Virus record (IMG/VR): IMGVR_UViG_3300025616_000004
Coordinates: 33,231-97,230 of that record
From: a virus
Strand: one strand, 5' to 3'
Length of the DNA stretch: 64,000 nucleotides
Of this stretch, positions 2,315 to 57,481 are shown in pieces; position 1 is the stretch's first letter; every line of letters starts with the position of its first letter. The notes beneath the pieces were generated by a model that worked only from the letters and a program-made list of their open reading frames with translations, ran no database searches and was not told the DNA's origin. The position numbers and the translations under genes are program-made.

Positions 2315-2796
2315 TATTTAATCTCCTCTCTAACCTCTTTGACCGTATACCCAAAATACAGATCATCTAAAAATGTAGATAAGTCTTCATCACTATCTAC
2401 CCACTTATTATGAATTTCTTTTGAAAAATCATCTATATGTTTATCGAAACTTCCAGTATCTCTGAGTATCTTTAGGATATCTTTTAACTCTTTCTCGGTG
2501 AATTGCATGCCTATGATTTTCAAAGGGTCTTGTCCTTGTATTTTTGTAATGTAGTCATAGGATGTAAATTGTTTATTACAACTCCAACACTGTAATCTAG
2601 TTATTCCATCCTCATCATGGAACCATTTAGCTGCGGGACTATTTTTATTATCATGAAATAAGCAAAAACAAGTACCTAATTTAATATCTATAGGTCTTCC
2701 CGTATGAACATCTGTTAACTCTTCAAAGGGTACCAGCCTTTCTATTAAAGTTTTAAGCTGTCTTTTATCTAATTTACCTATTTCATTATTACACAC
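2314..2796 (-). CDS. Primase zinc-binding (CHC2-type) domain protein
   Basis: The protein has 160 aa. It carries a CHC2-like zinc ribbon: CFCLFHDNKNSP, then about 17 residues later CWSC, as in the N-terminal template-recognition domain of DnaG primases. No TOPRIM or RNA polymerase domain is present. A TOPRIM-containing primase piece is encoded separately at 59678-60376. Translation starts at GTG; the GTG overlaps the TAG stop of the upstream DnaB gene. The gene's own stop overlaps the ATG of the DNA polymerase. The context (helicase, primase domain, polymerase) supports a role in priming at the fork. The zinc-binding call is strong; that it works with the distant TOPRIM protein is inference. 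Confidence 0.8.
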   Translation of the reverse strand: MCNNEIGKLDKRQLKTLIERLVPFEELTDVHTGRPIDIKLGTCFCLFHDNKNSPAAKWFHDEDGITRLQCWSCNKQFTSYDYITKIQGQDPLKIIGMQFTEKELKDILKILRDTGSFDKHIDDFSKEIHNKWVDSDEDLSTFLDDLYFGYTVKEVREEIK

Positions 2797-4256
2797 TAGT
2801 CTTCAAAATCCATACTGCCGAAATCCATATCGTATTCCTCATCTACGTTCTCAGCATCCTGTTCTTCTTCCATAATTTCTTCCGTTGTTTTAGAAGATGC
2901 TGGATTAGTTATTAGTTCTGCCATTGCTTCTGGATTTCCCATCTCTGGGAATTGGCTTTTGGCTACACCTACTGAGAAATACTCAGGTAGTACTATTGTA
3001 TTTATAGGATTCTCAGGAGTGTCTCCATCTCTATTTTTAACTATAAATATGTCAACATTTCCTGCATTTTTCTGAGCTTTTGATGCATACAGTATCAAAG
3101 CTACAGATGCAGACCTTTCTATCTCGTTAGCCTCTGCAAAATAGGTAGTACTTGCTAACTTTTTACCCCCATCCTGCTCACCTTGTTTCTCTAACAATTC
3201 AGTTCCCGCCCTGCTAACCTGACATAACATTAACAAGATAAAATTCATCCGAATACTCAAATCTGTAAAAAACTGAATGTAATGGTTAAGTGCGGAGTAT
3301 TGATCTAGTTTTAATGAAGGAGGAATTCTGTTCTTAAAGAGATTTATATAATCGATAACCACTAGATCTAGTTCTCCACCCATCTCCTCTTTCTTTTTTT
3401 GGATAAATGCCTCTAGGTATGCAGGAGTGCATTCCTCTAAATCTTCACTACCTACAACAGTTATCTGACCCTTAGCATTAGATTTCCAATCCTTAACTGC
3501 CTTTTCTAATTGTATCTCCTGTTTTGGGGTTAGTATTGTTTTCTTTATATGGCTTGCTTTTATATCATAACCTATCTCATGAGCATGTCTAGCAATCAAA
3601 TTATAAAATATCCTCATTGTAGTTACTTCTAAGGTTATATACAGTACCTTTTTGCCTTCTTTTACGGCAGCACGGTAAGCTATAGACAGGGCAAATGTAG
3701 TTTTAAATCTTCCGACAGGTGCTGCTACTACATTTAAGGTTCCGTAGTCTAGCCCCTTAGTATACCTATCCAAGTCAGGTATTCCAAACTTTAAGCCCTT
3801 AGGAGCTAGTTTAGCTGCTGCATATCCAGATATAACGCTGTCTATTGTTATAGGGTTTTTATTTCTACATTTTATGTTTCCTGATACAATATCCTGAACT
3901 GCGTCTAAATCCTGATTATTAATAGCCTCCATTATTTGTTTAAGTTGTTTATGTTTCTTAAGCTGGTTCGTAAGCTGTATAAATATATCAGGGCTATAGG
4001 GCATTTCTGGATCATAAAATTTATTCGGATGTTTGGCTTCTAAGTAAACTGCATCTGGAAACCTGCCTTCTTCTTTATGAAAAGAAATAGCGTCTTCAAA
4101 GATAACCCTCATCCATGTAATAGGCGAAGAATCTAACAAAGTGATAGTTTCTTTTATAGAATCAAGAGAGTGTACTTTATCTAAACTAGATAGAACTAAA
4201 GTAGCTAGTTTAGTAAGCTCTTCTGCATTAAATATTCTATTATCTAAATTACTCAT
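2796..4256 (-). CDS. dnaB: Replicative DnaB-type hexameric DNA helicase
   Basis: The protein has 486 aa. The RecA-like ATPase domain begins near residue 165 (LDRYTKGLDYGTLNVVAAPV). The P-loop APVGRFKTTFAL at 179-190 is slightly off consensus (GRFKT rather than GxGKT). Walker B is LDLVVIDYINL near residue 300, followed by the sensor-like LLMLCQVSRAG. The N-terminal part (1-130) matches the length of the DnaB helical domain but is not obviously conserved. The C-terminus is a long acidic tail (residues 450-486) rich in E and D. It lies directly upstream of the primase zinc-domain gene and polymerase. It should unwind DNA 5'-3' ahead of the fork and contact primase. The family assignment is confident. 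Confidence 0.92.
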   Translation of the reverse strand: MSNLDNRIFNAEELTKLATLVLSSLDKVHSLDSIKETITLLDSSPITWMRVIFEDAISFHKEEGRFPDAVYLEAKHPNKFYDPEMPYSPDIFIQLTNQLKKHKQLKQIMEAINNQDLDAVQDIVSGNIKCRNKNPITIDSVISGYAAAKLAPKGLKFGIPDLDRYTKGLDYGTLNVVAAPVGRFKTTFALSIAYRAAVKEGKKVLYITLEVTTMRIFYNLIARHAHEIGYDIKASHIKKTILTPKQEIQLEKAVKDWKSNAKGQITVVGSEDLEECTPAYLEAFIQKKKEEMGGELDLVVIDYINLFKNRIPPSLKLDQYSALNHYIQFFTDLSIRMNFILLMLCQVSRAGTELLEKQGEQDGGKKLASTTYFAEANEIERSASVALILYASKAQKNAGNVDIFIVKNRDGDTPENPINTIVLPEYFSVGVAKSQFPEMGNPEAMAELITNPASSKTTEEIMEEEQDAENVDEEYDMDFGSMDFED

Positions 4257-4290
4257 ATATTAATATACCCTTATAAATAACTAATAATCA

Positions 4291-4899
4291 TCATGCATCA
4301 TGCACAAACCCATCACCTTGAGTCGAGGTTGTTCTAGTTTCTAAGGATACTTCTTTTGTTTCTAAAGACATATCCTCGTTTCTTACGGTATTTGGACTAT
4401 CCTCGAAAAGATCAATAGCTTTCATAAAAGGGATAGTTCTTACAAAAGGCAAGGCATTTCTTAACTCACAGAGGACTATTGTTTTGTTTCCATTTGCATA
4501 TCTATTATGGAATACTGAAGTCATGTGTTTATCATTTCCCAAATGAGAAGTGTTTAAGTTCACGTAGATAAGTAATAGAGGATGTAGAGGATTTGAAAAA
4601 CCACTTGATATCTCGTATTTCTTAGAAAATAGACCTTCTGCTAATTGCTCGAATGTATATTTCAAAGGTTCTCTACTACAACCTGACCAAAGATTTATAA
4701 TATGCATCCCTGCTTTATTAAGTGTATCGGCGTTTCCGTATATTATAAAATTATCTATCTTAGGGATGGCTTCTTTGAACTTATTAAATTCTTCAAGGGT
4801 TATCTTACCCATAAATTTATCATAAGGCTTTAATATGCCCCTACAACTTTTAATCTTATAATTTTCGGGTGTCTCTCTAAGCTTTCTGTTATTATTCAT
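4291..4899 (-). CDS. Unknown replication-cluster protein, possible helicase-loader-like
   Basis: The protein has 202 aa and sits immediately upstream of the DnaB gene. Part of it resembles the DnaC/DnaI loader fold: FIIYGNADTLNKAGMHIIN occupies the place of a P-loop but lacks GK[TS]. HPLLLIYVNL resembles a Walker B strand. HNRYANGNKTIVLCEL recalls the 'NRY..g..TI' signature of loaders. The missing P-loop lysine means it may not bind ATP. A perfect host-type promoter (4923-4951) lies just upstream, so it may lead its own operon. I do not recognise the family; loader is a position-based and weak-motif inference. Confidence 0.45.
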   Translation of the reverse strand: MNNNRKLRETPENYKIKSCRGILKPYDKFMGKITLEEFNKFKEAIPKIDNFIIYGNADTLNKAGMHIINLWSGCSREPLKYTFEQLAEGLFSKKYEISSGFSNPLHPLLLIYVNLNTSHLGNDKHMTSVFHNRYANGNKTIVLCELRNALPFVRTIPFMKAIDLFEDSPNTVRNEDMSLETKEVSLETRTTSTQGDGFVHDA

Positions 4900-4922
4900 A
4901 TTTACCTTCTCCTATGTAAGGA

Positions 4923-4951
4923 ATTATAACATACGTATCTTAATAAGTCAA
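4923..4951 (-). promoter_or_regulatory. Host-type sigma70 promoter
   Basis: The minus strand reads TTGACT, 17 bp, TATAAT, with TATGT directly before the -10. It lies 24 bp upstream of the gene starting at 4899 and in the gap after the SF2 helicase gene. Confidence 0.85.
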
Positions 4952-4967
4952 GTGCTTTAAGTTATTT

Positions 4968-6482
4968 CTACTCAAATCCTTTGAAAGCTTTCTTACCCTT
5001 AGTTCCAGCATCCCAAAGATTAGCCTTCCTAATTTTGTCCATTAAATTTTTGTTAAAACTTTTGAGGTCGCCTTCTGGGATTTCATCAGCCTCAAGTATC
5101 GTGTTTGTGAGTTGTTTATAGGAGGATACCAGTTCATATTTGTAGGCATCTACTGTTCCTACTAACTTCCCGCCTAGTTCTATTTCAGTTGTTATAAAAT
5201 GTATCTTAAAATTAGGATGCTTGCTAAACAAACGGACTATGCGTCCCCTAGCTTGTAAAAATGCTCCAATTCCTTGAGGTACGTTATAGAAAAATAAGTT
5301 ATTCACGCTCTGCAAATTAAGTGAGGTCGAGCCTGCTGCACTTATCAGTAATACTTTATTGGAAGGGTCGGAGTTAAACCATTCTTTAATCTCACGTCTT
5401 TCCTTTGTACTAACAGTTCCATTTATCTTCCTATGATCTATATTCAACTTATCAAATATCTTAGATAACATGTCCATAGTTTCATGGTAATGTACGTACG
5501 TTAAAAGTCCTGTCTTAAGATAGGGTTTTATAGTTTCTAAGTATAGTTTAATCTTCGACCTATCTTTATCTACAGTATGTTGTAAATCTACTAATCTTGC
5601 TCCGTGTGTTTTAGCATCCTTTGAGTTAAGTAATCCTTCTGAAGCTGTCATGTAGTCATTTGGATTACTTAAAGTACACTTATGGACAAGGTACTCAGTA
5701 TCCTGTTTAGGGTAGTAGTCAAAACATATGGGTTTTATCTTCTCACGCATGAGCTCTAAATTTTTGTACCCTACTATCTCGGGGTACTGTCTTCCAGTTT
5801 TCCAATTTTTAACCATCTTCTCTTCTATAAATGTTGAGGAAAATACTGTTCTATTCTTAAAGATTTTAGAGTCAAGTATCTGAACTTGATAGAATAAATC
5901 AATTAATTTTGACATAATGGGGGTAGCTGTTAAGAATGTTAAATATTTTATAGGTTTTCTTATAGCTACAAAACACTTTGTAAGCATCGCAGTAGGCGTT
6001 TTTAGACGTTGTGATTCATCACAGTAGACTGCTGTGGGATATTTATTCAATCCTTTAAACAACGTCCTCAAATCTAAAGAGGTTAACTTCTCATATTGTA
6101 TGATTGCAACATCTTCCTCAGGATTTGTAAAGAAACCTTCAAGACTCTCGTCACTAGATATTAGAAGAGGCTTAAATGAGCTTCCATCGTCATACTCTAT
6201 TTTACTTTGCATTTCATCATGTAGTTCTAGGCATGATGACTTTGTTCCAAATACAATTGCTTTCTTAACATCTCCCCTATTCAACAAATCTATTGCGGAT
6301 TTTATAAAACAGATTGATTTTCCAGTGCCTGTAGACAAGCTTATCAGGGATGCAGGTCTACTCGTAGAGAAGTTTATAGCGTCCTCTTGATAGTCTCTTA
6401 GTGTGATACTATCTATTAACTTTAACATTCTATTCTCATTCTTTCTAGTATCCCTCTCCACAATGTAGGGTAAATATGCCAT
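4968..6482 (-). CDS. SF2 DEAD/DEAH-box DNA helicase (UvsW/SNF2-like)
   Basis: The protein has 504 aa. Helicase motifs occur in order: Q/I region LRDYQEDAINF followed by LISLSTGTGKSICFI (Walker A); DESQRLKTP (motif II, DESQ); TFLTATPIM (motif III); and the C-terminal lobe with LISAAGSTSLNLQS (motif V) and FLQARGRIVR (motif VI). This two-lobe layout matches phage UvsW-type or SNF2-like helicases, which remodel recombination intermediates or forks. The start overlaps the end of the PNKP-like gene by about 38 nt; an internal ATG at 6428 (MLKLIDSITLRDYQ) is an alternative. The family is certain; the exact substrate is inferred. Confidence 0.88.
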   Translation of the reverse strand: MAYLPYIVERDTRKNENRMLKLIDSITLRDYQEDAINFSTSRPASLISLSTGTGKSICFIKSAIDLLNRGDVKKAIVFGTKSSCLELHDEMQSKIEYDDGSSFKPLLISSDESLEGFFTNPEEDVAIIQYEKLTSLDLRTLFKGLNKYPTAVYCDESQRLKTPTAMLTKCFVAIRKPIKYLTFLTATPIMSKLIDLFYQVQILDSKIFKNRTVFSSTFIEEKMVKNWKTGRQYPEIVGYKNLELMREKIKPICFDYYPKQDTEYLVHKCTLSNPNDYMTASEGLLNSKDAKTHGARLVDLQHTVDKDRSKIKLYLETIKPYLKTGLLTYVHYHETMDMLSKIFDKLNIDHRKINGTVSTKERREIKEWFNSDPSNKVLLISAAGSTSLNLQSVNNLFFYNVPQGIGAFLQARGRIVRLFSKHPNFKIHFITTEIELGGKLVGTVDAYKYELVSSYKQLTNTILEADEIPEGDLKSFNKNLMDKIRKANLWDAGTKGKKAFKGFE

Positions 6483-10143: not shown

Positions 10144-13100
10144 TTAATTTTTTCCCCTAGTATCAATCCAACCATAGGTATCATATTCAAAAGTAGCCCA
10201 AGTTTGCCCAGCTGTAGTCTCTTTTCTATGTATTCTAGATGCTGTATCCGTAAATATAGAAATACCACTACTATCTCTACTTCCTACATAATCTCCTCCA
10301 CCGTCTGCTCTTGGGTATATTCCTACAAAATGCTGCGGAGTATTCATAAATGTAGGTTTTACATATATAAGAGCTTCTAATCCATTCCCAGGAGCTCCTC
10401 CTACAATAGAAATGTTCATGAGGGCTTCACAACGAACTCCGTATGGAGTTCCTAGGGGTAAAAGTGTCCAAGATCCAGAAGGAGTTCCAGGAGTTCCTGA
10501 ATAATAATCGGTTCTAGGGTTTAAGTAATAAAACTTGTCCCCCCTCTGTTGAAATTTTACTATTCCACCGTATAAGTCTGTAAGAATACTTCCAACCCTT
10601 CTTTGGTATACAAAGTCTGTAGGCATTATGGGAGATACTGCGTTTTGAGAAAATAATATATCACTAGTACCGTCTAGTTTAGAGATAACATATACATGAT
10701 ACCAAGTGTTTATTGTTTTTACCCCTTCATCCAATCCGCCATTCCCAGTACCTTCTATAAAAAGGCTATCTAATGTTTTAAAAGATGAAGATAAACTTGT
10801 AAATTCGATATTAGCCGTGTCATCATCAGATCTGGCTTTACCTGCGGATATGTCTATCCCTACTCCAGAATCTACGGATAGTTGCATTACATCACCTAAG
10901 CTGAAATTCTCATAGGAGAAGCTCCCTGCGTCCCAACTCTCCCCACCATTAGTAGACCTGTATATCCTATTCGAAGAATTTCCAGCTACTAGAATATCTC
11001 CATTTGTTATTTGGGTTATGCCCGTAGCACTATCCCCTATCAGAATTCCTGTTTGCCATGGAGATACATTCCCTCCATTCCATGTTAGTCCATCGTCGGT
11101 GGACTTGTATACTTTGTGGGAAGTACTTCCCGTAACTAACAAGTTTCCGTTAGTATCCTCAGTTATTCCAAAAATACCTGCCCCAGCAGATACTAATATC
11201 CCAGTAAGCCAAGGATTTCCACTACCTCCACCGCCATTCCATGTTACTCCATTATCTGTAGACATGTATACTTTGTTAGTATGCTCTCCCGTAGCAAATA
11301 TACGTCCCGAAGATATCCCAATTGTTGACTGAACTAAATTACGTATTCCAGCTCCTGTGGATATGACAGTTCCAGTATTCCATGTAGCTCCATTATCTAT
11401 GGACTTATAGACCTTATCATTATTATGGGCTACTGCTAGTATACTTCCATTGCTTAGTTGTATTATTCCGTCTAAAAAGAATCCAGAAGCTACTACAATC
11501 CCAGTATCCCAAGTAACTCCATAGTCTGTAGACTTAAATACCCTATTTGACATTTCATTAGTTGCAAGGAGGTCTCCATTGGCTAACTGAATAACTGACA
11601 TTAGTCCTGTTCCATTGGATACTAAAGAACCACTATCCCAAGTGGATCCATTATCCTCAGACAGGTATATCCTATCAGAACTGTAACCACATACAGCTAC
11701 ATCTCCGTTGGTTAAAACATTAACTGATATTGGGCGAGGATTTACATAAGAAGAAACTCCACTACTCCAGTTGAGTCCGTTATTCCTAGACCTATATACT
11801 TTTTTAGATAATGCTCCTGTAACTACTAAATCTCCATAATCTGTCTGAATTATCCCTATAAGCCCTGCCCCACTAGCCACTAAAACTCCAGAGTCCCATG
11901 TATTCCCGTTGTCTGTAGACGTGTACACTTTATTTGAAGTATATCCGAGTACCCTTATACTTCCATTAGCTGTTTGTATGATGTCGCATATACCTGCTCC
12001 AGAATCAATTAAAGTTCCAATATCCCATGTAGCCCCGTTATCAAACGACTTGTATACTTTACCTGAGTCTTCTCCAGTAACTAGTATACTTCCGTTAGAT
12101 GTTTGGAGTATTCCTCGAATAGAGTTACTTGTAGACTTTTTAAGTAGTGTCCCTCCAGCATATAAGGCTCTATCAATAGGGTCTATCTCGAGACTATCAT
12201 CTCTAAATATGTTAGTGATATCGTTTATGCCATCATAAGTAGCACTCACTACATATTCTATTCCAGAACCTCCTTGCATCTTAACTGTGGAGTGGTCTGG
12301 TATTTGGGATGTAACATCTCCATTTATGCTAAAATTATAGCTATTCGATCCAGAAACTTGCGTGTTTGGAGTTACGGCTATTAAATTTTCTATTAAAACC
12401 CCTGAGTCCCATGTATCTCCTTTATCGATGGATTTATATACTTTATCTGTTACTCTATCAGTTACTAGAATACTTCCATTTACTAACTGAGTAATATCCC
12501 CGATACTAGAGGCATCTGTTATGAGAACTCCCGAGTCCCATGTATCTCCTTTATCGATGGATTTATATACTTTATTAGAAGTATTACCTGTTACAAGTAG
12601 CTCACTACTGGCTAGTTGTACCATGCTATCTAATCCTGATCCATATTCCACTAAAGAGCCAGAATCCCAGTTAAGTCCTTGATCGCTTGATCTATGGATA
12701 CTGTCAGATTGGTATCCTGTAGCTAATATATCTCCAGATGTTCTTACCTGTACTAAGCCTGTAACACTAGCTCCAGTCGCTATAAAAGTTCCAGCATCCC
12801 AATCAGCTCCGTTACTAGGGTATAGGGATCTAAATATTTTATTTCCATTTCCAGAGACTAGTATGTCTCCAGTTATTGTTTTGCATAACCCGTGTAAGCT
12901 AGTACCAACAGGTACGGGTATTGAAGTTCCAGGATCCCAGGTAGTTCCTAGATTTCCCACATCCGTAGATTTATATATTTTACGATCATTCCTCGCTAAA
13001 ACTAGGATAGGACCGTCTTTTGATTGAACTATGTTGGATAATGATGTAGCACTCGGTACTAGTACCCCGTCACCCCATGTTACTCCATTATCCTTAGAAG

Positions 13101-14337
13101 TATAAACTTTTTTAGTTGTATCCCCTGTAGCGAGTATGTATCCGTTAGCTAGTTGAGTTATATTCTGAAGACCCGCCCCAGTTCTTACTAAAACTCCAGG
13201 GTCCCATGTAACTCCATTATCGATGGATCTGTACACTTTATTAGATGTGAATCCTGTGGCTAGTACATCCCCGTTAGTAAGTTGAGTAATTCCCCTTAAT
13301 GAGATAACTACTGAAGGGTCTACTTTTGTACCACTTGTCCAAGTGTATCCCCTATCTGTAGATCTATATATTAACTGTGTGACGTTTCCAGTAGCTAGTA
13401 GGTCCCCATTCATTAACTGAGTTATACTATCTACTGCTGAATTACTTATTTCGGTAGGTATTGGAACTCCGAGGTCCCATGTAGCTCCATTATCAAGGGA
13501 TCTATAAGCTGTATTAGAAGTAGTACCTACAGCTATTATCTCAGTCGCTCCTGAAGAATTACTATTAGATAATGTTAATCCTGACAAGAAAGTTGGGGGT
13601 AGTTTTGCCTCAAGTATACTCCCCAATTGACCTAGATTCACAGCATGCCCGCTTAAAGTACCATCTGGAATAGTTAAATTTCCAGTCATGGTATCTCCAG
13701 CTCTATCAACTTTTGCGTCTAATTGTCCCTTATTCACAGCATGTCCACTTAAAGTACCTTCTGGAATGGTTAAATTTCCAGTCATGGTATCTCCGACTCT
13801 ATTAACTTTACCGTCTAACTGGGGTTGGATAGGTGAAGTTACTCCGTCAAGACACTGGAACTCTTCATTACTTACAGAACCGTTGCCTATGCTGGTAGCA
13901 TCCAGAGTCGACATAGGATTCAGGGTTATATTTACCTCTGTAAGGTTTCCTATCTTAATTATAAATTTTTCTTTAAATTCTATGGTGGTTCCATCGATAG
14001 GTATTGACTTATAAAATTCAGGGTGTTCCGCTACTGCGAACAGACTACCATCTTGAGTAAATATCCCAACTTCTCTTACAGTAAATCCCCCAACGTCACT
14101 TGGAATTATAGTTAGAACATCTAACCAGTTAATCATGTTTGGATCCAGAAAAACATAGTCTATTTCTTTTCTATACACTTCATGATTTAAGGCAGTCTGT
14201 ATAGGATTAGGAGGAGTCTGAAATCCGTTACTATCCCCCCAAGCAAAATACTTCAATGTTATATTGGTACCGTTTGCTAAACTATCTAAAATTAACTGAC
14301 TTCCTAACTCGGTGAGTATGGGTGTATACCTACTCAT
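10144..14337 (-). CDS. Giant tail fibre with phage collar N-terminus and about 18 Asp-box (BNR) repeats
   Basis: The protein has 1397 aa. Residues 1-140 match the phage tail-collar/fibre N-terminus (DUF3751-like: RYTPILTELGSQLILDSLANG ... VGGFTVREVGIFTQDG) that docks on the baseplate. Two short direct repeats follow (GNLTIPEGTLSGHAVNKGQL and its copy). About 18 repeats of roughly 45 residues come next, each with an Asp-box such as YKSIDNGATWD; this is the sialidase/BNR beta-propeller signature. A small beta domain shared with other virion proteins interrupts the series near residue 670. The last 200 residues are unrelated to the repeats and may be the receptor-binding tip. A host glycan-binding role is likely; sialidase activity is not implied because Asp-boxes are structural. 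Confidence 0.88.
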   Translation of the reverse strand: MSRYTPILTELGSQLILDSLANGTNITLKYFAWGDSNGFQTPPNPIQTALNHEVYRKEIDYVFLDPNMINWLDVLTIIPSDVGGFTVREVGIFTQDGSLFAVAEHPEFYKSIPIDGTTIEFKEKFIIKIGNLTEVNITLNPMSTLDATSIGNGSVSNEEFQCLDGVTSPIQPQLDGKVNRVGDTMTGNLTIPEGTLSGHAVNKGQLDAKVDRAGDTMTGNLTIPDGTLSGHAVNLGQLGSILEAKLPPTFLSGLTLSNSNSSGATEIIAVGTTSNTAYRSLDNGATWDLGVPIPTEISNSAVDSITQLMNGDLLATGNVTQLIYRSTDRGYTWTSGTKVDPSVVISLRGITQLTNGDVLATGFTSNKVYRSIDNGVTWDPGVLVRTGAGLQNITQLANGYILATGDTTKKVYTSKDNGVTWGDGVLVPSATSLSNIVQSKDGPILVLARNDRKIYKSTDVGNLGTTWDPGTSIPVPVGTSLHGLCKTITGDILVSGNGNKIFRSLYPSNGADWDAGTFIATGASVTGLVQVRTSGDILATGYQSDSIHRSSDQGLNWDSGSLVEYGSGLDSMVQLASSELLVTGNTSNKVYKSIDKGDTWDSGVLITDASSIGDITQLVNGSILVTDRVTDKVYKSIDKGDTWDSGVLIENLIAVTPNTQVSGSNSYNFSINGDVTSQIPDHSTVKMQGGSGIEYVVSATYDGINDITNIFRDDSLEIDPIDRALYAGGTLLKKSTSNSIRGILQTSNGSILVTGEDSGKVYKSFDNGATWDIGTLIDSGAGICDIIQTANGSIRVLGYTSNKVYTSTDNGNTWDSGVLVASGAGLIGIIQTDYGDLVVTGALSKKVYRSRNNGLNWSSGVSSYVNPRPISVNVLTNGDVAVCGYSSDRIYLSEDNGSTWDSGSLVSNGTGLMSVIQLANGDLLATNEMSNRVFKSTDYGVTWDTGIVVASGFFLDGIIQLSNGSILAVAHNNDKVYKSIDNGATWNTGTVISTGAGIRNLVQSTIGISSGRIFATGEHTNKVYMSTDNGVTWNGGGGSGNPWLTGILVSAGAGIFGITEDTNGNLLVTGSTSHKVYKSTDDGLTWNGGNVSPWQTGILIGDSATGITQITNGDILVAGNSSNRIYRSTNGGESWDAGSFSYENFSLGDVMQLSVDSGVGIDISAGKARSDDDTANIEFTSLSSSFKTLDSLFIEGTGNGGLDEGVKTINTWYHVYVISKLDGTSDILFSQNAVSPIMPTDFVYQRRVGSILTDLYGGIVKFQQRGDKFYYLNPRTDYYSGTPGTPSGSWTLLPLGTPYGVRCEALMNISIVGGAPGNGLEALIYVKPTFMNTPQHFVGIYPRADGGGDYVGSRDSSGISIFTDTASRIHRKETTAGQTWATFEYDTYGWIDTRGKN

Positions 14338-44149: not shown

Positions 44150-45739
44150 TTAATATATGTCCAAAGTGAATTTTATTGTTCCAGAATCATGTAATGGGAA
44201 TATCTTATTAAGAGCTAATATTTGCTGTTCTGTTAAAAGAGGATCAAATGTTTCAGGAAACAGCTTCTCTAGCTTATATTTCATATACTTCTGCCTATTA
44301 GACACATGGTTATTTCTACTATTCAGGTATCTAAGAGAGCCTACATTATAGCATATAAACTTAAATCCATTCTTGTAATAAACAGAGTCTTCGTAATTTG
44401 GACACCAATCCCTATACCCAAAGGTAGTTATTACTTTCACATTAATACGATTAACTTTAATATACTTAATACTGTTTTTCAACAGCTTGCTGAATCCTCC
44501 GACAATAGAAGTATCCCTCATGTTACAGTACCTAACTAATTCAATACTATCTCCTTTTACTACAAAAGACATAGAGCTTATTAAACTGTCTCCAGAACTA
44601 TATAATCCAAGTGTAAAGGTACTTGGACAATATCCGTATAAGTGATTATACTTATAGAAAGATTTTTGATCCTCAACAGGTACTTCTCTAACTTCTAGAT
44701 TTCTAGCATATACTCTAAGGTTATTCAGTCCTAGTATATTTCTTATTCTACTTTTAACTATATCCTTATCCATGTATTCCCATATATGATATAACTGGAT
44801 GTTATTAGCTAGACATACCTCCGTTTTATTTTTATGATATCCAGAGTCCATAAACTGACCTGAGTGGTAAGTGTTACTATTATACTCAAACCCTATATTA
44901 AGCTTAGATATTAGTATGTCTATCTCTTTAAACTTACTAGTATCTCCATTATCATGGTGTAATCGATACTTTTCAGTATTAAACCCTAATTCATCTATAA
45001 AATACGAGTAGTCTTTTTCTGGAACAGATATGTTGGCATAGCAAATAGGACATCTTATCTTCCTATCCAGAGAGTCTTGGAATACTCCCCCACATCTTCT
45101 ATGTTTGAAATTGTATATCTTATAACTCTGAACAATTCCACCCTCTTGTACCCTAGTTCCAGTGTAATCGTCTAGTATTTCATATTCTTCTGAATTAAAC
45201 CTAGGACTTGTATCTAGGATAACTCTTGCTAGGTGTGAATTTCTTATTTTTTCCCGTACCTCCATGCTCTTAGAGGGTATACCTGAACCGTATTTGATAC
45301 TACTAGACTCTACTACGGTATTCTTAACCTGATCCCCAGTCTTAGGAGCATATTTATGAAAAGTAAAAGCTCTTCTTAATTGTTTTCTTGATATCTCTAA
45401 GTACTCAGATAGTCTTGTCTCTGAGTAGTTTTGAGTTGTGTACATGTTATATACTCCATCCCAAAACGAAGTATCTAATAGCATGTACTTAATTCCACTA
45501 GTGCTTTCTATAAAATCTTTCTTTAGCTTGCCTGTTCTTGATTCAGCTGACTTTAATATTAAAAACCCATGCTCTTTAAATATAGAACTTAACATTCTAA
45601 TATCCATGCCTAGCTCTTTGGATAACTTAACAGTACTTCCGAGTATCAAATACTCATCATACTTAGATGACCAGAAATTCTTATCATCTCTTTCTATATC
45701 CCCTACTAAAGTTTTAATAATATTTTTAAGCTTAGCCAT
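44150..45739 (-). CDS. Vsr-like homing endonuclease with GNAT-like C-terminal domain
   Basis: The start is ATG 45737-45739 (MAKLKNIIKTLVGD) with AAGGAG; a longer in-frame extension runs into the promoter and is rejected. The 529-aa protein has two HTH-like blocks, one KYG-type repeat, a zinc site (HRRCGGVFQDS ... CPICY) and the nuclease core KEIDILISKLNIGFEYNSNT ... LYHIWEYMD. The C-terminal 190 residues have VGGFSKLLKNSIKYI and FGYRDWCPNYEDSVYYKNGF, the same domain as in the endonuclease at 17257. It has its own sigma70 promoter. Confidence 0.85.
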   Translation of the reverse strand: MAKLKNIIKTLVGDIERDDKNFWSSKYDEYLILGSTVKLSKELGMDIRMLSSIFKEHGFLILKSAESRTGKLKKDFIESTSGIKYMLLDTSFWDGVYNMYTTQNYSETRLSEYLEISRKQLRRAFTFHKYAPKTGDQVKNTVVESSSIKYGSGIPSKSMEVREKIRNSHLARVILDTSPRFNSEEYEILDDYTGTRVQEGGIVQSYKIYNFKHRRCGGVFQDSLDRKIRCPICYANISVPEKDYSYFIDELGFNTEKYRLHHDNGDTSKFKEIDILISKLNIGFEYNSNTYHSGQFMDSGYHKNKTEVCLANNIQLYHIWEYMDKDIVKSRIRNILGLNNLRVYARNLEVREVPVEDQKSFYKYNHLYGYCPSTFTLGLYSSGDSLISSMSFVVKGDSIELVRYCNMRDTSIVGGFSKLLKNSIKYIKVNRINVKVITTFGYRDWCPNYEDSVYYKNGFKFICYNVGSLRYLNSRNNHVSNRQKYMKYKLEKLFPETFDPLLTEQQILALNKIFPLHDSGTIKFTLDIY

Positions 45740-45759
45740 GTAAATCTCCTTATATGTTA

Positions 45760-45788
45760 AGTATAGCATACATACATGAATAATGCAA
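45760..45788 (-). promoter_or_regulatory. Host-type promoter of the homing endonuclease at 44150
   Basis: TTGCAT, 17 bp with TATGC, TATACT on the minus strand, 21 bp upstream of the ATG. Confidence 0.75.
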
Positions 45789-45802: not shown

Positions 45803-46642
45803 TTAGTTACCTTTAAGATATTGATTCGAAGGTTTTTTATACTCAAAGAGATGTTTGTTATCTTGATATAGATTGTACTTTCTATCAAGATATAAAGTTG
45901 AGTTGTCATACAGATAACTCAATATTTTACTGACATCTTTCTTTGATCTATACTGAAAGGTTGAATAGAATTCGTAATGTTTAAGTTTAGTACTAGTCAA
46001 CCCTAATAGAGACTCCGTGTAATCTTTAATCTGCACTGAGAACTGTTTAGTAGCTATAAATCCACAACCTAGTGAGTCCTGCCTATCCATGTAATAAACT
46101 GTTCCATCTCCGTCAAAGAGTCCTCTGAGATAATGTCTTTTTAATTCATCAGATAGATTGTCAAACGTGAAATTATAATCATCTTTATGGGTCTTATCTG
46201 GAACTACTCCTAGTTTTATTAAATCTTCACATAGCGAAACATTCGTTAAGTGAAAGTATTCCTTACCTTGGTAAAGTTTTAGGCTTGCATTGAATATTTT
46301 ATTTATTTTTTCAAGATGTGATCTGTCTGAAGGTTTTAATCCTATTGTTAATCTTGAATGTATCTTGTTATTAGACACACTCCCATCAGCCACTATGAAT
46401 CCTAACCAGTATGCTTTTTCTTCCATGTTTATGTTCTTGAAGAAATCTACGTTCGTGTATCTTAGGCTGTTAACACTTCTATTTCTTTGACCCTCTGCTA
46501 GTGTCCTAAGTACAATGCCATTCTTTTTTAATATTCTAGCTATTTGATTACAGGATAATCCTGCTCTTCTACCTATAACATGGCAACCTAGCATGTCTTC
46601 TATGTATAGTCTTATTATTTCTTCTACTTCTATTTTCATCAT
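45803..46642 (-). CDS. LAGLIDADG homing endonuclease, probably translated from a leaderless mRNA
   Basis: The 279-aa protein has an N-terminal HTH (CHVIGRRAGLSCNQIARILK) and two LAGLIDADG blocks: YWLGFIVADGSVSNN near residue 75 and HYLRGLFDGDGTVYY near residue 175, both with the catalytic Asp. I place the start at the ATGATG at 46637-46642, because the -10 of a perfect promoter ends only 6 nt upstream. The longer frame to 46684 would include the promoter. It follows the capsid gene's terminator and is mobile; it cuts the neighbouring allele lacking it. Confidence 0.85.
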   Translation of the reverse strand: MMKIEVEEIIRLYIEDMLGCHVIGRRAGLSCNQIARILKKNGIVLRTLAEGQRNRSVNSLRYTNVDFFKNINMEEKAYWLGFIVADGSVSNNKIHSRLTIGLKPSDRSHLEKINKIFNASLKLYQGKEYFHLTNVSLCEDLIKLGVVPDKTHKDDYNFTFDNLSDELKRHYLRGLFDGDGTVYYMDRQDSLGCGFIATKQFSVQIKDYTESLLGLTSTKLKHYEFYSTFQYRSKKDVSKILSYLYDNSTLYLDRKYNLYQDNKHLFEYKKPSNQYLKGN

Positions 46643-46648
46643 AAACAT

Positions 46649-46677
46649 ATTATAGCATATATGGAAGGACATGTCAA
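46649..46677 (-). promoter_or_regulatory. Perfect consensus sigma70 promoter of the LAGLIDADG gene
   Basis: TTGACA, 17 bp with TATGC, TATAAT on the minus strand. The predicted start coincides with the ATG. Confidence 0.88.
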
Positions 46678-46686
46678 CACTCAAAT

Positions 46687-51230: not shown

Positions 51231-53006
51231 CTAGAATACGTCCCCAATACTTACCTCAGCCCCTCCTTTTGGGGCTGTTGCTGCTGGTTGAGTAGGTGTT
51301 TGTGGAGTTACTGGTGTTGTAGGTTGTTTAGGTGTAGTCATAGGAGGGGTTGACGGTGGAGTTGCTGACCCAGTTGATAAATTACTTCCCGATACTGAAG
51401 TTCCTCCTACTGGTTTTCTTGTTGTGGTCGGAGGGGGTGCTTCTCCCCCCTTAGGCATGTTAAATGATTTTCCTTTATCCTTATTATAAAGTTTTAAAGC
51501 TCCTTCTATGTGAGGGAATGATGACGTAAACATGTTAAAGATACCTATTATCTTATCATTATCCACTTCTACTTGGAATTGATCGGATGCAGATACTTCC
51601 CCTAGTAGGTTAAAACAATCCCTTAGAGCTGTCATTGTGGCTACCATTACATCTATATCATCTAGTATATCTAGGTTTGTAACAGACTTAAACTTAACTT
51701 TAATATTGTTCTTAATAGGGAAGTGATTTCCAGTATGTATTAAATGTTTGTATATTAAATTCTTAATTCCTTCCCCAAAGCTAGTTTGAATTCCTACTAA
51801 TTTTCTAGCATATGCGGAATAAACTTTTAACATGTCAGTTTTTCCTAAAAGTTGATCTCCGTACGATAAATAGAACGAAGGAACTCCCATAGACATGGCT
51901 ATTCCTTTTCGTATATCATTTATTCTATTATTCAAGTCTGAATTATCATAATCAAACCTTATCTGGGTGATAGCTCCTTTACCGTCAGCATGATTTGGGA
52001 TTACTTTTATCCTTGAAGCTGATTGCAGTGAGTCGGCTACTGACATATTGTCGGTATAAGTTGCTTCTGTATTTATATCATTCAAATAGTTTTCATACTT
52101 ATCTATAATATCTGTAATATATTGGTTATCTGTATCCGCTGGTATATCAACGGAGACTAAAATTGGAGCCATAACTCTCTTGAGTTCCATGGCAAGACTT
52201 GTAGTCTCCAATGTTTGTAATTTTTTAATTGAAGTAAGTACTGGGTATATTACAGACTTACCCATTCGAATACTCTTAGGTAAATTCTGAATATCGTCTG
52301 GAAGTTCTACTTTAACTCTTATCTTACTACCATCTAATACGAAGTGAGATAACTCATGACAGTCCAATAATTCAAATTTACCGATTTTAGGGTTATGTCT
52401 CATGAAACTACTGAGTTCCCTGCCTTTATAAAGTCCCATACAGTTCTCAGTATCACAATCATCTATTATTTCAACAATTCCTTGACCTTGTACCACCTTA
52501 GTCCTTAAAAAATATTCTCCTTCTAGCATCCAATCAGGTACTATATCTCTTGCGAGTCCAGCTATGTCATGTTTCTTGCAAAATTTATCTATTTCTTTCT
52601 GAACTCTTTCATCTATTCTTGAATCTTTTCCAGAGTCTCCACAATACTCTACAGATAGGAAGCTATCATCAGATATGCTACTAAAAGCGTCATTAACTAA
52701 ATTAGCTAAGAGAGCTTGAACAAGTTCACTCTCGTTAGTTTTTCTTAACTGTTGGATTAGGGTTCCTCTATTCTCTAAAGTAGTAGATAATTGTCTTAAA
52801 ATTTGACCTAAAGCATTCTGTCTTGAAAAAGTACTGCCATTACTCCCCCACCCTCCCCCAGTACCATAAGCATTTGTTATATCAAAAACTTTAGTACTAT
52901 CTGCAGGGATGTCGTAGTGTGACGTCATTCCTTTAAAAAATGACATGGTGTTATTATATCCAGCTTGATTTAAACTAGAGTCGAAACCTCCGCCAGTAAA
53001 ACTCAT
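51231..53006 (-). CDS. Portal protein, gp20-like
   Basis: The protein has 591 aa and is encoded right after the large terminase. Central conserved segments include FCKKHDIAGLARDIVPDWMLEG, TTSLAMELKRVMAPILVSVD and RKGIAMSMGVPSFYLSYGDQLLG, which match the gp20-type portal core (wing, stem and clip region). The C-terminal 80 residues are Pro/Thr/Gly-rich and look disordered (PPTTTRKPVGGTSVSG...). It forms the dodecameric channel and binds terminase. It starts at an ATG behind GGAGG, close to a late element. Confidence 0.9.
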   Translation of the reverse strand: MSFTGGGFDSSLNQAGYNNTMSFFKGMTSHYDIPADSTKVFDITNAYGTGGGWGSNGSTFSRQNALGQILRQLSTTLENRGTLIQQLRKTNESELVQALLANLVNDAFSSISDDSFLSVEYCGDSGKDSRIDERVQKEIDKFCKKHDIAGLARDIVPDWMLEGEYFLRTKVVQGQGIVEIIDDCDTENCMGLYKGRELSSFMRHNPKIGKFELLDCHELSHFVLDGSKIRVKVELPDDIQNLPKSIRMGKSVIYPVLTSIKKLQTLETTSLAMELKRVMAPILVSVDIPADTDNQYITDIIDKYENYLNDINTEATYTDNMSVADSLQSASRIKVIPNHADGKGAITQIRFDYDNSDLNNRINDIRKGIAMSMGVPSFYLSYGDQLLGKTDMLKVYSAYARKLVGIQTSFGEGIKNLIYKHLIHTGNHFPIKNNIKVKFKSVTNLDILDDIDVMVATMTALRDCFNLLGEVSASDQFQVEVDNDKIIGIFNMFTSSFPHIEGALKLYNKDKGKSFNMPKGGEAPPPTTTRKPVGGTSVSGSNLSTGSATPPSTPPMTTPKQPTTPVTPQTPTQPAATAPKGGAEVSIGDVF

Positions 53007-53043: not shown

Positions 53044-56000
53044 TTAGAAGCCTAAAGTCTTATTAAAACCTTCTCTCTTTTGTTTATTTTGAGCTTCTTT
53101 CATCAAATTTCCTATATGTCCTTGTATCTGAGGAGGACCTTCATTTTTACTTACTATTCCTTCATAAACATTCTGAAGATTCATGTACTCACAAGAATTT
53201 AAGCAAGACCAAACACCTCCCGTAACCGAGTCACTTAAATCTTTTGAATTGTGTACAAATATTCCATTATCCAACGCAAAATTATTCGTGGATGGGACAG
53301 TTATATCGTAGACATCTTCGGTTACGTCTAGTTCTATTACGGATACTCTGACTACTTTATGATTATACTCTGGAAGTATGTCTAACTTACCCAACCTTAC
53401 TAAGTAGTTAGTTAACTTTTTAGGAGAAAGACCAGTAACCCTAAGTATTTCTTCTAAGGGCATGCCTCTAAGTTTTTCTGAGTTTATTTGAAAGGTACTC
53501 GAGTCTATTCTCTTAGCCCACGATTTTACATAACCTCCTGCAACATGCATAGCATGTTGATAGCTAAGGATATACTCTTTCCATGGCTCTTTTCTCTGTT
53601 TAGCTAGTTCGTCAAAATATTCTTTCTGACCATCTCTCATCGTCTGTTGTTGATATTCCCAAACTTCTGCTTTTCTAGCTTTCCCTTCACTACTTTTCCA
53701 GTATATTTCATTTAGTTTTTTACCTGCAATCTTATTCCTAGCTATGATATTTTCATTAGTTAATCTCATATTTAAAATGTCTTGTCTATATTTATCAGTT
53801 TTCATGTACTCTTGCCTATCCAATTTAATTTTAAGTCTGTCATCTCTCCTCTTTGAGTTATCTGGATTAGCCCAATAGTTCTTTTTAAAAGAAGCTACTC
53901 TCTTATCCGTGTGGAGTCTCCCTAGTCCACTCAGAAAGGCATGTCTTCTAGTGTGATCTGATATGCTCATTATTTCTAAATTTTCTGGAGAATTATCACT
54001 TGGTTTGAAATTCCTATGATGTACTACTTCGTCCTTAGCTAAGGTATGCTGATAGTGATAGGATGCTACTAATCTATGGATAAAATTGTATCTTCCTGTT
54101 TTATTATTCTTAATTTGAAAATACCTACCTACGCCTCCACTCCTATATTTGTAATTTTGCTCTTTAATGTATATAGGCATTAGAGAATCCTTAGGTTCTA
54201 AGTATTGAGCTTGTTTATAAGATCCATCCCTCATCATAAATAAATGCTCAGGGGTGCATCTTATAGGATCTCTCTCATCATCTAGGCAGACTTCTACTAG
54301 ACAGGAGACTTCTTTTGTCTTATGAGCGTTATATGCCTTGGCTGGAACGATAGTTCCATCAGGCAGGCATCCATATACCCAAAACTCATTAGAAGTTCCT
54401 AAATCAGATAACTCTTTAAAACTCTTCGAGGTTCCATCTAATAGTTTTATTTGAGTATCTCCCGTGAAACAGCTGTTTGCGAGGTGATCTACTTTTTTAG
54501 TGAGCTCTCTAAGACCCAAAAGTTCTTTTATTAGAAACTCATTTTTAACTCCAATTATTTTATTATTATTTACCAACTCTTTTAAAGCGTAATATGGATC
54601 TTTAGTTCTATCTACTGATAAATATGCTGTAGTAGTTCCGTGCAATCTTAAGAATTGTCTCATTACATCTCCTTGGAACATATCTGAGCTTACTACCTTT
54701 ATAGGGTATCCTAACTTCTTTAATAAAAATATAAAGTCCATTACTTTGTATATGTTAATCTCTTCCCCTTTACGGGCTTCTATAGCTACTGCAAAATCAA
54801 CATAAAACATTCTTTCTTTTCTTTTAAAGCTTGGCATGTTTATATCAGTTTTATAAAGATCAAAGTCTTCTAGAGTACTGTATACCGCAGATATTCCAAA
54901 TTTATCCTTTTTTGTCGCAGCATCTAAGTGTATAAATCTATAACATTGTGGATTTAGGGGTTTCTTGAAGTAATCTAGGCTTGTAACATAATTTTCTAAC
55001 TTATCTAATGGATCATTAAAAGACATGCTTATGACATCACTCTTAAATCTATTAGGGTTTACGAATAGACTTACTAACTGCTTCTTAGATTTGAATAGGG
55101 ATATGTCAGCTCTTATTCTTCTTCCTGCAATATCCCTTACAGCTCTGGATATGTTTAAATCAAATTCCCTATAGTATTCCATAGGTACTTCTATTGCCAA
55201 AGCCTTTATATCCTCAGGTACTTTATCCTCTTCACGAATAATGCATGGTTCTTTTTTATCGTCTCCTAAGAATACCTTAAATTTATCCCCTAAGTAGTCC
55301 CCCTTGACTTCCCACAGACTTATGTTGTCGAAATATATACCATACTGATTACTTTGCATCTCTTCTATGGCAGTATTTAGATAGTCTTGTTCGTCTATTG
55401 GGGAACTTACCATCCATAGAACTCCTGGTATGAACTCCCCTAAGTGTATAAATCTTGATTTCTTTCTTCCAGTAAATCCCATGTGTAAATCTTTTACTTT
55501 TGCTATGGCATCTTTACCTTGAAAAAAGGATACCTCATCCATGAGACCGCAGAAAGTCAATTTTCCTATCAAGTGGTCCATTTTTGAACCTGTATGTACT
55601 GTTATGTTGTCTCCTATATGGATTCCCTCCTCAGATACTGAGGATCTAGCTTTTGGAGTTGCTTTTACATCCTTGAAAAATGGAGAAGTGTTTATCATGC
55701 CCAACAGTTTTCCAAAAGCTACTGAAGTCCCTTGAGCATGGGTAGGGGCTATTAATGCAAACGAAAATTTATCGGTTCCCTTTGTTATGGAGTAAAATTC
55801 ATATGGATTTTTAAGGCATAGTAGCTTATACATCTCATAAACCATAGATATTATAGCACATGTTGTGTTATGAGTTACTGTAAAATCTCCTAATAGGTAT
55901 AAATGATTACAGTCCAGAGTAAACCCATAGTAATCCCCCTCCCCTAGAAAATTTAATGTAAAGTCGGTTTCTAATAGGCCGTCTCTAGTTGATATACTGT

Positions 56001-57015
56001 CCATCCTAAAGTCTGAGGGTACTCTGGAGAAATCTCCAGATATGTCTACGTAGTACCCTGTAGATGTAAAATAAGTATCCTTTTCCAATTTAGCTGAAAA
56101 GCCTAGGGATCTACTCAAATATACTATATCTTCTGCTAATACTAAGTTTTTAACTGTAACTGATAGAATATCTTGATCTGGATATCTGAGATCTAATTCT
56201 GAGGAATCTAAGATACCCGCTAAAAGTTTCAATCTATTCTCTTCTGAATTGACTAAGTACTCTTTAGGTATTGAACTATCCCCTGATGTTACTGATTTAT
56301 ATATATGATAGGATGTTGGAAACTCTTCTGGATTATACATAAGAGTGTCCTCTGAGGATTCCGATCCTAACCAACGACCGTAAGTATATGCACCTATAGT
56401 TAAGGGCTCTTCTGAATAGTGGACAGCTTTTCTGTACAATTTATTGACTGTTTTAAAGTTATCGTCTTTTTCTAAGTACTCTGATACCGAGATATTGGTT
56501 ATACTGCCATGATATCTATCTTTTAAACTAAGAATATGAGATTTATTGCAAGTAAAGGAATCCCCATTATCAGAAGGGACGACTTCGTACATATCCTCTC
56601 GACCTCTGGCTAATGAAAGAACTCTTCTAGGTGTGGAGTCGTCTCCCATTAATAAGTCCCCTATTTTAACACTCTCTACTCTCTTGATAGAGCCGTCGAA
56701 CATTAAAATACGAGTTCCTTTTCCTAAGCACTTACCCACCCCTATTGCGGTGGATAGGGCTATCTCATTATACATATTTAAGCAAGGGTGGGGATGTATC
56801 TGTTTTAATAAATCTATCCACAGGGGATAGATATTATCACCCAAGGAGTTTCCTAAATAGTATGGGTCTCTTATAAAAGTTTCTATATCCACGGGCTTGG
56901 TCTTGTAACAATTAGTTGTCAACTCGTAGATGACTTCTCCCATCTCGTATACAGATAGGTCAGGGTCGCTTGTTAGTATTTCGCTTACATAGTCAAGAGT
57001 ATCATGATAGCTCAT
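53044..57015 (-). CDS. Large terminase subunit (gp17-like) with two inteins
   Basis: The frame is continuous from 57015 (ATG; GTG at 57024 is an upstream alternative). After removal of inteins of 288 and 408 aa the protein has about 630 aa, close to T4 gp17. Residue numbers below count from 57024. ATPase: Walker A GVGK (95-98) joined to TT (387) after splicing, Walker B LTFCGLMDE (D496, E497). Nuclease: RFIHLDAATKKDKFG (D701), VVSSDMFQGD (D781) and the final motif SKDLSDSVTGG (D1262), which becomes contiguous with HLANS after splicing. It powers DNA packaging. The adjacent upstream gene is the small subunit. The enzyme is inactive until both inteins leave. Confidence 0.95.
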   Translation of the reverse strand: MSYHDTLDYVSEILTSDPDLSVYEMGEVIYELTTNCYKTKPVDIETFIRDPYYLGNSLGDNIYPLWIDLLKQIHPHPCLNMYNEIALSTAIGVGKCLGKGTRILMFDGSIKRVESVKIGDLLMGDDSTPRRVLSLARGREDMYEVVPSDNGDSFTCNKSHILSLKDRYHGSITNISVSEYLEKDDNFKTVNKLYRKAVHYSEEPLTIGAYTYGRWLGSESSEDTLMYNPEEFPTSYHIYKSVTSGDSSIPKEYLVNSEENRLKLLAGILDSSELDLRYPDQDILSVTVKNLVLAEDIVYLSRSLGFSAKLEKDTYFTSTGYYVDISGDFSRVPSDFRMDSISTRDGLLETDFTLNFLGEGDYYGFTLDCNHLYLLGDFTVTHNTTCAIISMVYEMYKLLCLKNPYEFYSITKGTDKFSFALIAPTHAQGTSVAFGKLLGMINTSPFFKDVKATPKARSSVSEEGIHIGDNITVHTGSKMDHLIGKLTFCGLMDEVSFFQGKDAIAKVKDLHMGFTGRKKSRFIHLGEFIPGVLWMVSSPIDEQDYLNTAIEEMQSNQYGIYFDNISLWEVKGDYLGDKFKVFLGDDKKEPCIIREEDKVPEDIKALAIEVPMEYYREFDLNISRAVRDIAGRRIRADISLFKSKKQLVSLFVNPNRFKSDVISMSFNDPLDKLENYVTSLDYFKKPLNPQCYRFIHLDAATKKDKFGISAVYSTLEDFDLYKTDINMPSFKRKERMFYVDFAVAIEARKGEEINIYKVMDFIFLLKKLGYPIKVVSSDMFQGDVMRQFLRLHGTTTAYLSVDRTKDPYYALKELVNNNKIIGVKNEFLIKELLGLRELTKKVDHLANSCFTGDTQIKLLDGTSKSFKELSDLGTSNEFWVYGCLPDGTIVPAKAYNAHKTKEVSCLVEVCLDDERDPIRCTPEHLFMMRDGSYKQAQYLEPKDSLMPIYIKEQNYKYRSGGVGRYFQIKNNKTGRYNFIHRLVASYHYQHTLAKDEVVHHRNFKPSDNSPENLEIMSISDHTRRHAFLSGLGRLHTDKRVASFKKNYWANPDNSKRRDDRLKIKLDRQEYMKTDKYRQDILNMRLTNENIIARNKIAGKKLNEIYWKSSEGKARKAEVWEYQQQTMRDGQKEYFDELAKQRKEPWKEYILSYQHAMHVAGGYVKSWAKRIDSSTFQINSEKLRGMPLEEILRVTGLSPKKLTNYLVRLGKLDILPEYNHKVVRVSVIELDVTEDVYDITVPSTNNFALDNGIFVHNSKDLSDSVTGGVWSCLNSCEYMNLQNVYEGIVSKNEGPPQIQGHIGNLMKEAQNKQKREGFNKTLGF
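53248..54471 (-). mobile_element. Intein 2 of the large terminase, with HNH endonuclease
   Basis: Starts at Cys852 (CFTGDTQIKLLDGTSKSFKE, block A) and ends GIFVHN (N1259), followed by Ser. Block B is RCTPEHLFMM; block F is VYDITVPSTNNFALDNG. An HNH core lies at about 998-1028: DEVVHHRNFKPSDNSPENLE. It interrupts the last catalytic motif of the nuclease domain. All splicing residues appear intact and the endonuclease looks active. Confidence 0.92.
55867..56730 (-). mobile_element. Intein 1 of the large terminase, in the Walker A lysine, with degenerate LAGLIDADG
   Basis: Starts at Cys99 (CLGKGTRILMFDGSIKRVES) directly after GVGK and ends LLGDFTVTHN (N386), followed by Thr. Block B is TCNKSHILSL. 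The two endonuclease motifs are YTYGRWLGSESSE and LKLLAGILDSSE; both lost the catalytic Asp (DG replaced by SE). Splicing residues are intact; the nuclease is probably dead. Confidence 0.92.
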
Positions 57016-57481
57016 TATCTCCACTTACTCCGTCTTCTTCTCGTTTAATTTGAGTCTGGGCTTCTTTAGCTCTAGCTCTTATTTCGTTAACCACTCTACG
57101 AATTCTAGTATCTTGAGGCATGCCTCCCTGAGTTTCTTCTTTTTGTTTTTCAAAATAAGTTCTAAGTAATTCATTCTTTGTCGCAGACTCATAAAGTTTA
57201 GCGTAAAAAGACAAGGATACATTCTTGTCTTTTAACATTATCTCATAAAACTTAAAAAAATCTTTTACGTCTAGTCCGAATATAAATTCATCTGAGAATG
57301 CAAGTTTCTCTAATTTCTTTATTATCCTATTACACTTCTTAAGATGTTTAAACTCCCCAGCTACCAAATCCATGAACTTATCTGGAGATATACTCTGGGA
57401 AGTTAATTTTCTTTTCCTATCAGATGATATTTGTACTTGATTTATAAGTATTTTTCCATCTTCTTCTGGAGCATTTGACAT
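57002..57481 (-). CDS. Small terminase subunit (position-based)
   Basis: The start is ATG 57479-57481 with GGGAGG five bases upstream; a TTG at 57493 is rejected. The 159-aa protein is helical, with an HTH-like middle (SPDKFMDLVAGEFKHLKKCN) and a helical oligomerisation part (FFKFYEIMLKDKNVSLSFYA), ending acidic. It overlaps the large terminase gene by 14 nt. Size, helical content and gene order fit gp16-type small subunits, which recognise viral DNA. Confidence 0.7.
   Translation of the reverse strand: MSNAPEEDGKILINQVQISSDRKRKLTSQSISPDKFMDLVAGEFKHLKKCNRIIKKLEKLAFSDEFIFGLDVKDFFKFYEIMLKDKNVSLSFYAKLYESATKNELLRTYFEKQKEETQGGMPQDTRIRRVVNEIRARAKEAQTQIKREEDGVSGDNELS

Follow-up and report, generated by a model that had tools for sequence, protein, structure and literature searches.

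Two inteins interrupt a predicted phage terminase large subunit gene, one in each catalytic domain

The gene described here very probably encodes the terminase large subunit (TerL) of a T4-like phage and has taken up two unrelated homing inteins in separate invasions; both would excise, presumably constitutively. It lies in a 64,000-nucleotide stretch of DNA (hereafter the window) taken from a virus record in IMG/VR that is 97,230 bases long. Intein 1 splits Walker A as GVGK/TT and intein 2 splits nuclease motif III as KVDHLANS/SKDLSD (a slash marks an insertion point or splice junction throughout).

Layout of the gene and identity of its product

An earlier note on this DNA had read a single TerL frame with two inteins, C99-N386 and C852-N1259, one in each catalytic domain at Walker A and at the last nuclease motif. 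Coordinates and boundary residues proved correct throughout, and both junctions were confirmed, with relatives lacking the inteins contiguous at these points. The 630-aa product proposed in that note was likewise obtained when both inteins were removed computationally and the exteins joined, but the spliced product may be 627 aa, because the ATG found in frame at codon 4 (57015..57013), which is common to the relatives, may be the true start. The features are as follows.

51231..53006, minus strand: T4-type portal gene (gp20-like) adjoining TerL, supporting the TerL identity
53044..57024, minus strand: ORF of the TerL precursor, opening with GTG and running for 1326 codons before the stop; in-frame ATG at 57015..57013 conserved in relatives
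56731..57024, minus strand: N-extein, aa 1-98, ending GVGK, with Walker A Lys98 at 56731-56733
55867..56730, minus strand: intein 1, aa 99-386 (288 aa), at the P-loop site K/T; PI-SceI-like Hint plus degenerate LAGLIDADG
56536..56553, minus strand: intein 1 block B, TCNKSH (TCNESH in the relative L006)
56359..56379, minus strand: intein 1 degenerate LAGLIDADG motif 1, GRWLGSE, with PI-SceI D218 replaced by Ser
56197..56223, minus strand: intein 1 degenerate LAGLIDADG motif 2, LAGILDSSE, with PI-SceI D326 replaced by Ser
54472..55866, minus strand: middle extein, aa 387-851, with the remaining ATPase motifs and nuclease motifs I and II
55525-55545, minus strand: Walker B, LMDEVSF, in the middle extein
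54904-54936, minus strand: nuclease motif I, FIHLDAATKKD, in the middle extein
54667-54690, minus strand: nuclease motif II, SSDMFQGD, in the middle extein
53248..54471, minus strand: intein 2, aa 852-1259 (408 aa), at the nuclease motif III site; Hint plus HNH
54244..54261, minus strand: intein 2 block B, RCTPEH (TxxH)
53977..54024, minus strand: intein 2 HNH motif, VHHRNFKPSDNSPENL, intact (profile match plus motif reading)
53047..53247, minus strand: C-extein, aa 1260-1326, opening with SKDLSD (nuclease motif III, 53230-53247)

From its fold, motifs, neighbours and annotated relatives, the ORF product is identified as a phage TerL, with a Walker A/B ATPase and an RNase H-type nuclease in a terminase fold. 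An alignment that included annotated TerLs from Rhizobium, Yersinia, Vibrio, Maribacter, Cobetia and other phages showed that the exteins retain the Gly and Lys of Walker A as well as the acidic positions of the nuclease. Across 42 relatives G95, K98, E209, D414, D496, D569 and D572 were invariant; in the numbering of the intein-free relative L010, D414 belongs to motif I, D496 to motif II and D569/D572 to motif III, which places the intein 2 point between an invariant Asp-His (561-562) and D569. An AlphaFold2 model of L010, built from an alignment (pLDDT 82; single-sequence prediction of an intein-free relative reached a pLDDT of only 31), matched the terminases of HK97 (E 3.3e-16), D6E and Sf6, as well as the nuclease domain of G20c. 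On direct membership in the T4 gp17 family, sequence profiles gave less: the PHROG match to L010 was weak, Pfam yielded no terminase family match for TerL, and a profile of 10 TerLs found no sequence match in the PDB. The neighbourhood holds, besides the portal, an S77 prohead protease and a gp23-like capsid protein.

Elsewhere in the window, two apparent free-standing homing endonucleases, one of HNH type (44150-45769) and one of LAGLIDADG type (45803-46684), lie directly downstream of the gp23-like capsid gene, and a 1397-aa tail-collar fibre with BNR/Asp-box repeats occupies 10144-14337. A further HNH_3 ORF is found at contig positions 9226-9360.

State and distribution of the two inteins

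Both inserts were recognised as inteins in database comparisons. Residues 99-178 of intein 1 matched Hom_end_hint in Pfam (PF05203, 2.7e-23), and PDB chains of PI-SceI matched this intein as well. For intein 2, Pfam returned Intein_splicing (1.3e-13) and HNH_3 (1.3e-5, scoring 25.2 bits against a cut-off of 24.8), and NCBIfam returned intein_Nterm and intein_Cterm, with TIGR01445 and TIGR01443 above cut-off. The residues expected of class 1 inteins are present in intein 1 (C99, block B TCNKSH, HN386 and +1 T387) and in intein 2 (C852, block B TPEH, HN1259 and +1 S1260). Base composition did not mark the inserts as foreign, their GC being 0.36 and 0.35 versus 0.34 in the middle extein.

The endonuclease of intein 1 has decayed. 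PI-SceI D218 and D326, the catalytic Asp residues of its two LAGLIDADG motifs, both correspond to Ser in the window intein and to Asp in the homologous intein of L006. In the comparison with L006 and PI-SceI, intein 1 is also some 56 residues shorter, and relative to L006 its splicing regions are 71% and 67% identical while its endonuclease region is 43% identical. Because Asp was replaced by Ser twice and about 56 residues are gone while the splicing regions are kept, intein 1 is a late-stage element that has probably lost the ability to home by itself. In intein 2 the HH..N...N residues, common to the homologue in L064, are retained; its HNH endonuclease is apparently intact, and this intein may therefore still be mobile. 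Relatives of intein 1 sit mostly outside TerL, commonly at P-loops with the junction GK/T or GK/S (among the matches listed, 4 of 79 were in TerL and 55 of 79 followed GK), and a scan of bacterial genomes gave no intein 2 relative.

Scanning IMG/VR with the joined exteins recovered nine loci, among them empty, half-empty and identical alleles. Four relatives (L003, L004, L005 and L010), 58-60% identical to the window TerL, had no intein at either site, and a partial locus (L009) was intein-free at site 1, so that the inteins are precisely absent, with contiguous exteins, from five relatives at site 1 and four at site 2. The uninterrupted junctions read GVGKTTIAIAS at site 1 and KKIDHISNNSKDIADSV at site 2. 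Each insert also occurs singly, the P-loop intein in L006 (44% identical to window intein 1) and an intein 2 homologue at the same motif III site in L064. The exteins of L006 share 99.3% and 98.0% nucleotide identity with those of the intein-free L005 and L003 in this sister group, and because 98-99% identical exteins differ in the presence of the intein, the P-loop intein is gained and lost on a short time scale.

The double-intein gene is known from metagenomic assembly only, and it could in principle be an artefact of sequencing or assembly, or else a pseudogene filled with junk. Such an origin is hardly credible, given that a separately assembled 170 kb contig (L008) carries the gene nucleotide-identical over 3981 bases within 14.5 kb that match the window with 1 mismatch and 1 gap, that another assembly (L002) is identical over the portion it covers, that the frame stays open through 1326 codons with intein profiles and splice residues intact, and that other contigs hold homologous inteins at the same sites. 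The identical gene in other assemblies means that the window gene is not an assembly error, and together with the homologues it rules out sequencing error at the junctions, a concern raised in the earlier note.

The distribution of the motif III intein was surveyed with intein 2 and its flanks as an IMG/VR query, which returned 80 loci, 76 of them with TerL matches. The intein is therefore present in about 76 IMG/VR TerL loci, and the motif III junctions inspected read K[VIF]DHPxxG/C...FVHN/SKD or near-variants; this conserved nuclease-site family is far commoner in phage TerLs than one would expect from the few TerLs with two inteins in the literature. After 95% clustering, 11 of the 47 scorable clusters (23%), the window lineage included, carried a P-loop intein too, and L122, judged by eye, is one more such case outside the 11/47. 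Among control TerLs with an empty motif III the P-loop was occupied in 2 of 48 clusters (Fisher p 0.007, or 0.10 at 60% clustering, with relatedness uncorrected). Because shared ancestry and intein-rich lineages are uncorrected and the test and control sets were drawn with different queries, this excess, which could point to something beyond separate invasions, is suggestive only.

Other arrangements were seen during the survey. Among L149, L150, L151 and L166, and L171 and L182, inteins occur at nuclease motif II (QC...HN/S, following the Asp of that motif) and at Walker B (junction LDE/C...HN/TNFPP), often with a motif III intein also present. In L118, L119 and L120 the TerL lies in several same-frame pieces between stop codons, which may mean stop-codon recoding. 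A single contig, L265 (IMGVR_UViG_3300033067_001561, G001:C1:25000-34500), on which the reading rests, holds in ORF 1238-6220 a 1660-aa TerL with apparently five inteins (135, 355, 136, 134 and 294 aa): two in the P-loop three extein residues apart (GIG/../SGK/../SYIS) and the others after motif I, within motif II (DGFQ/SADM) and at motif III. Its predicted spliced product of 606 aa scored 433 bits as a TerL versus 182 for the best precursor piece, and the phrase "five inteins" led to no open-access paper whose title or abstract seemed to describe such a TerL.

Splicing and the control of packaging

Under the reading that we favour, the two inteins were acquired independently and look like selfish mobile DNA: a PI-SceI-type element would have entered between the Walker A Lys and Thr and kept its splicing domain while its endonuclease died, and an unrelated element with an apparently intact HNH endonuclease would have entered immediately ahead of Ser-Lys-Asp in nuclease motif III. 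After translation, class 1 splicing of both (through Cys1, the block B His, the terminal His-Asn and the +1 Thr or Ser) would yield a motor of 627-630 aa with the ligated junctions GVGKTTCAI and DHLANSSKDLSD. Because each insert interrupts a conserved catalytic motif, a working motor should need both splicing events; the dependence of packaging on two such events, asserted in the earlier note, is almost certainly sound, judging from the insert positions.

It might be supposed that the degenerate, shortened intein 1 no longer splices, leaving the phage defective or the motor partly active. We regard this as very unlikely, as the splicing blocks are kept at 71% and 67% identity to L006, Cys1, block B, HN and the +1 Thr are all in place, and the population was assembled several times.

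The earlier note went on to suggest a timing brake, in which conditional splicing, responding to time, redox, DNA or a cofactor, would delay the ATPase and nuclease until late infection. Such regulation fits the location of both insertions within catalytic motifs, the mildly enriched co-occurrence of P-loop and motif III inteins, and the upkeep of the intein 1 splicing blocks after endonuclease loss, and the authors of the Mic1 study made the same suggestion (PMC7156551). However, conserved motifs are the usual targets of homing inteins (PMC5050341), and splicing would be retained anyway, since an unspliced TerL would be dead. Moreover, the 58-60% identical relatives do without the nuclease-site intein and mostly without the P-loop intein, and TerLs with 98-99% identical exteins differ in whether the latter is there. 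The brake does not follow, because homing elements target conserved motifs anyway, sister phages manage without and there is no sign that splicing is conditional, and we judge it unlikely. Improbable, too, is a broader version in which TerL is a hot spot for inteins across phages, with two to five of its catalytic motifs (P-loop, Walker B and motifs I-III) recurrently occupied together, and the combined splicing has been recruited in some lineages to gate packaging. Constitutive splicing of both inteins is our default assumption. The natural pairs with and without an intein provide material for testing the idea of inteins as control switches. For annotation, any environmental phage TerL gene coding for over 1000 aa should be examined for several inteins.

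Comparison with known systems

The double-intein TerL layout is not new and recurs in other phages, one of them published in 2020. That case, the TerL of Microcystis phage Mic1, has inteins in its ATPase and nuclease domains, for which "fine control" of packaging was proposed (PMC7156551). Like the window gene, the Mic1 TerL (MN013189) has one intein per catalytic domain, a +1 Thr for the ATPase intein and a homing endonuclease domain in one intein. However, its insertion points, as we read the junctions, differ from those of the window at both sites (TG/TPKG in the coupling motif and QQDHL/CDAL, the latter a few residues downstream of the window's motif III point), and its inteins are only remotely similar. 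A two-intein TerL in three in-frame pieces is also described for the crAss-like Delta-group sequence OBYQ01000140 (PMC7886860), which, unlike the window gene, uses TAG recoding.

Individual insertion points have precedents as well. Mycobacteriophage TerL1-a inteins lie at the same P-loop point as window intein 1, between the invariant Lys and Thr, and the insertion sites of mycobacteriophage terminases given in the accessible text are all in the ATPase domain, unlike that of intein 2 (PMC5050341). TerLs of phiLo, Yersinia and Vibrio phages were considered as further intein carriers because tblastn matches ran past residue 851, but these TerLs are uninterrupted. Streptococcus phage vB_SagM-GXN1 (PQ819873) carries an intein at the window's motif III point (KVDHPPNS/C...VVHN/SKDISDS), whereas in the ATPase domain Walker B is the occupied site (VSHN/CALMDEIEF), as against the P-loop in the window gene; its TerL is unannotated in the record, and the motif III intein extends over two frames (frameshift or sequencing error). 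Finally, the intein of Klebsiella phage JD001 (TGGGK/CLGKGT...FTVTHN/T) is a P-loop member of the intein 1 family, about 36% identical, whose host gene is a helicase, whereas that of window intein 1 is TerL.
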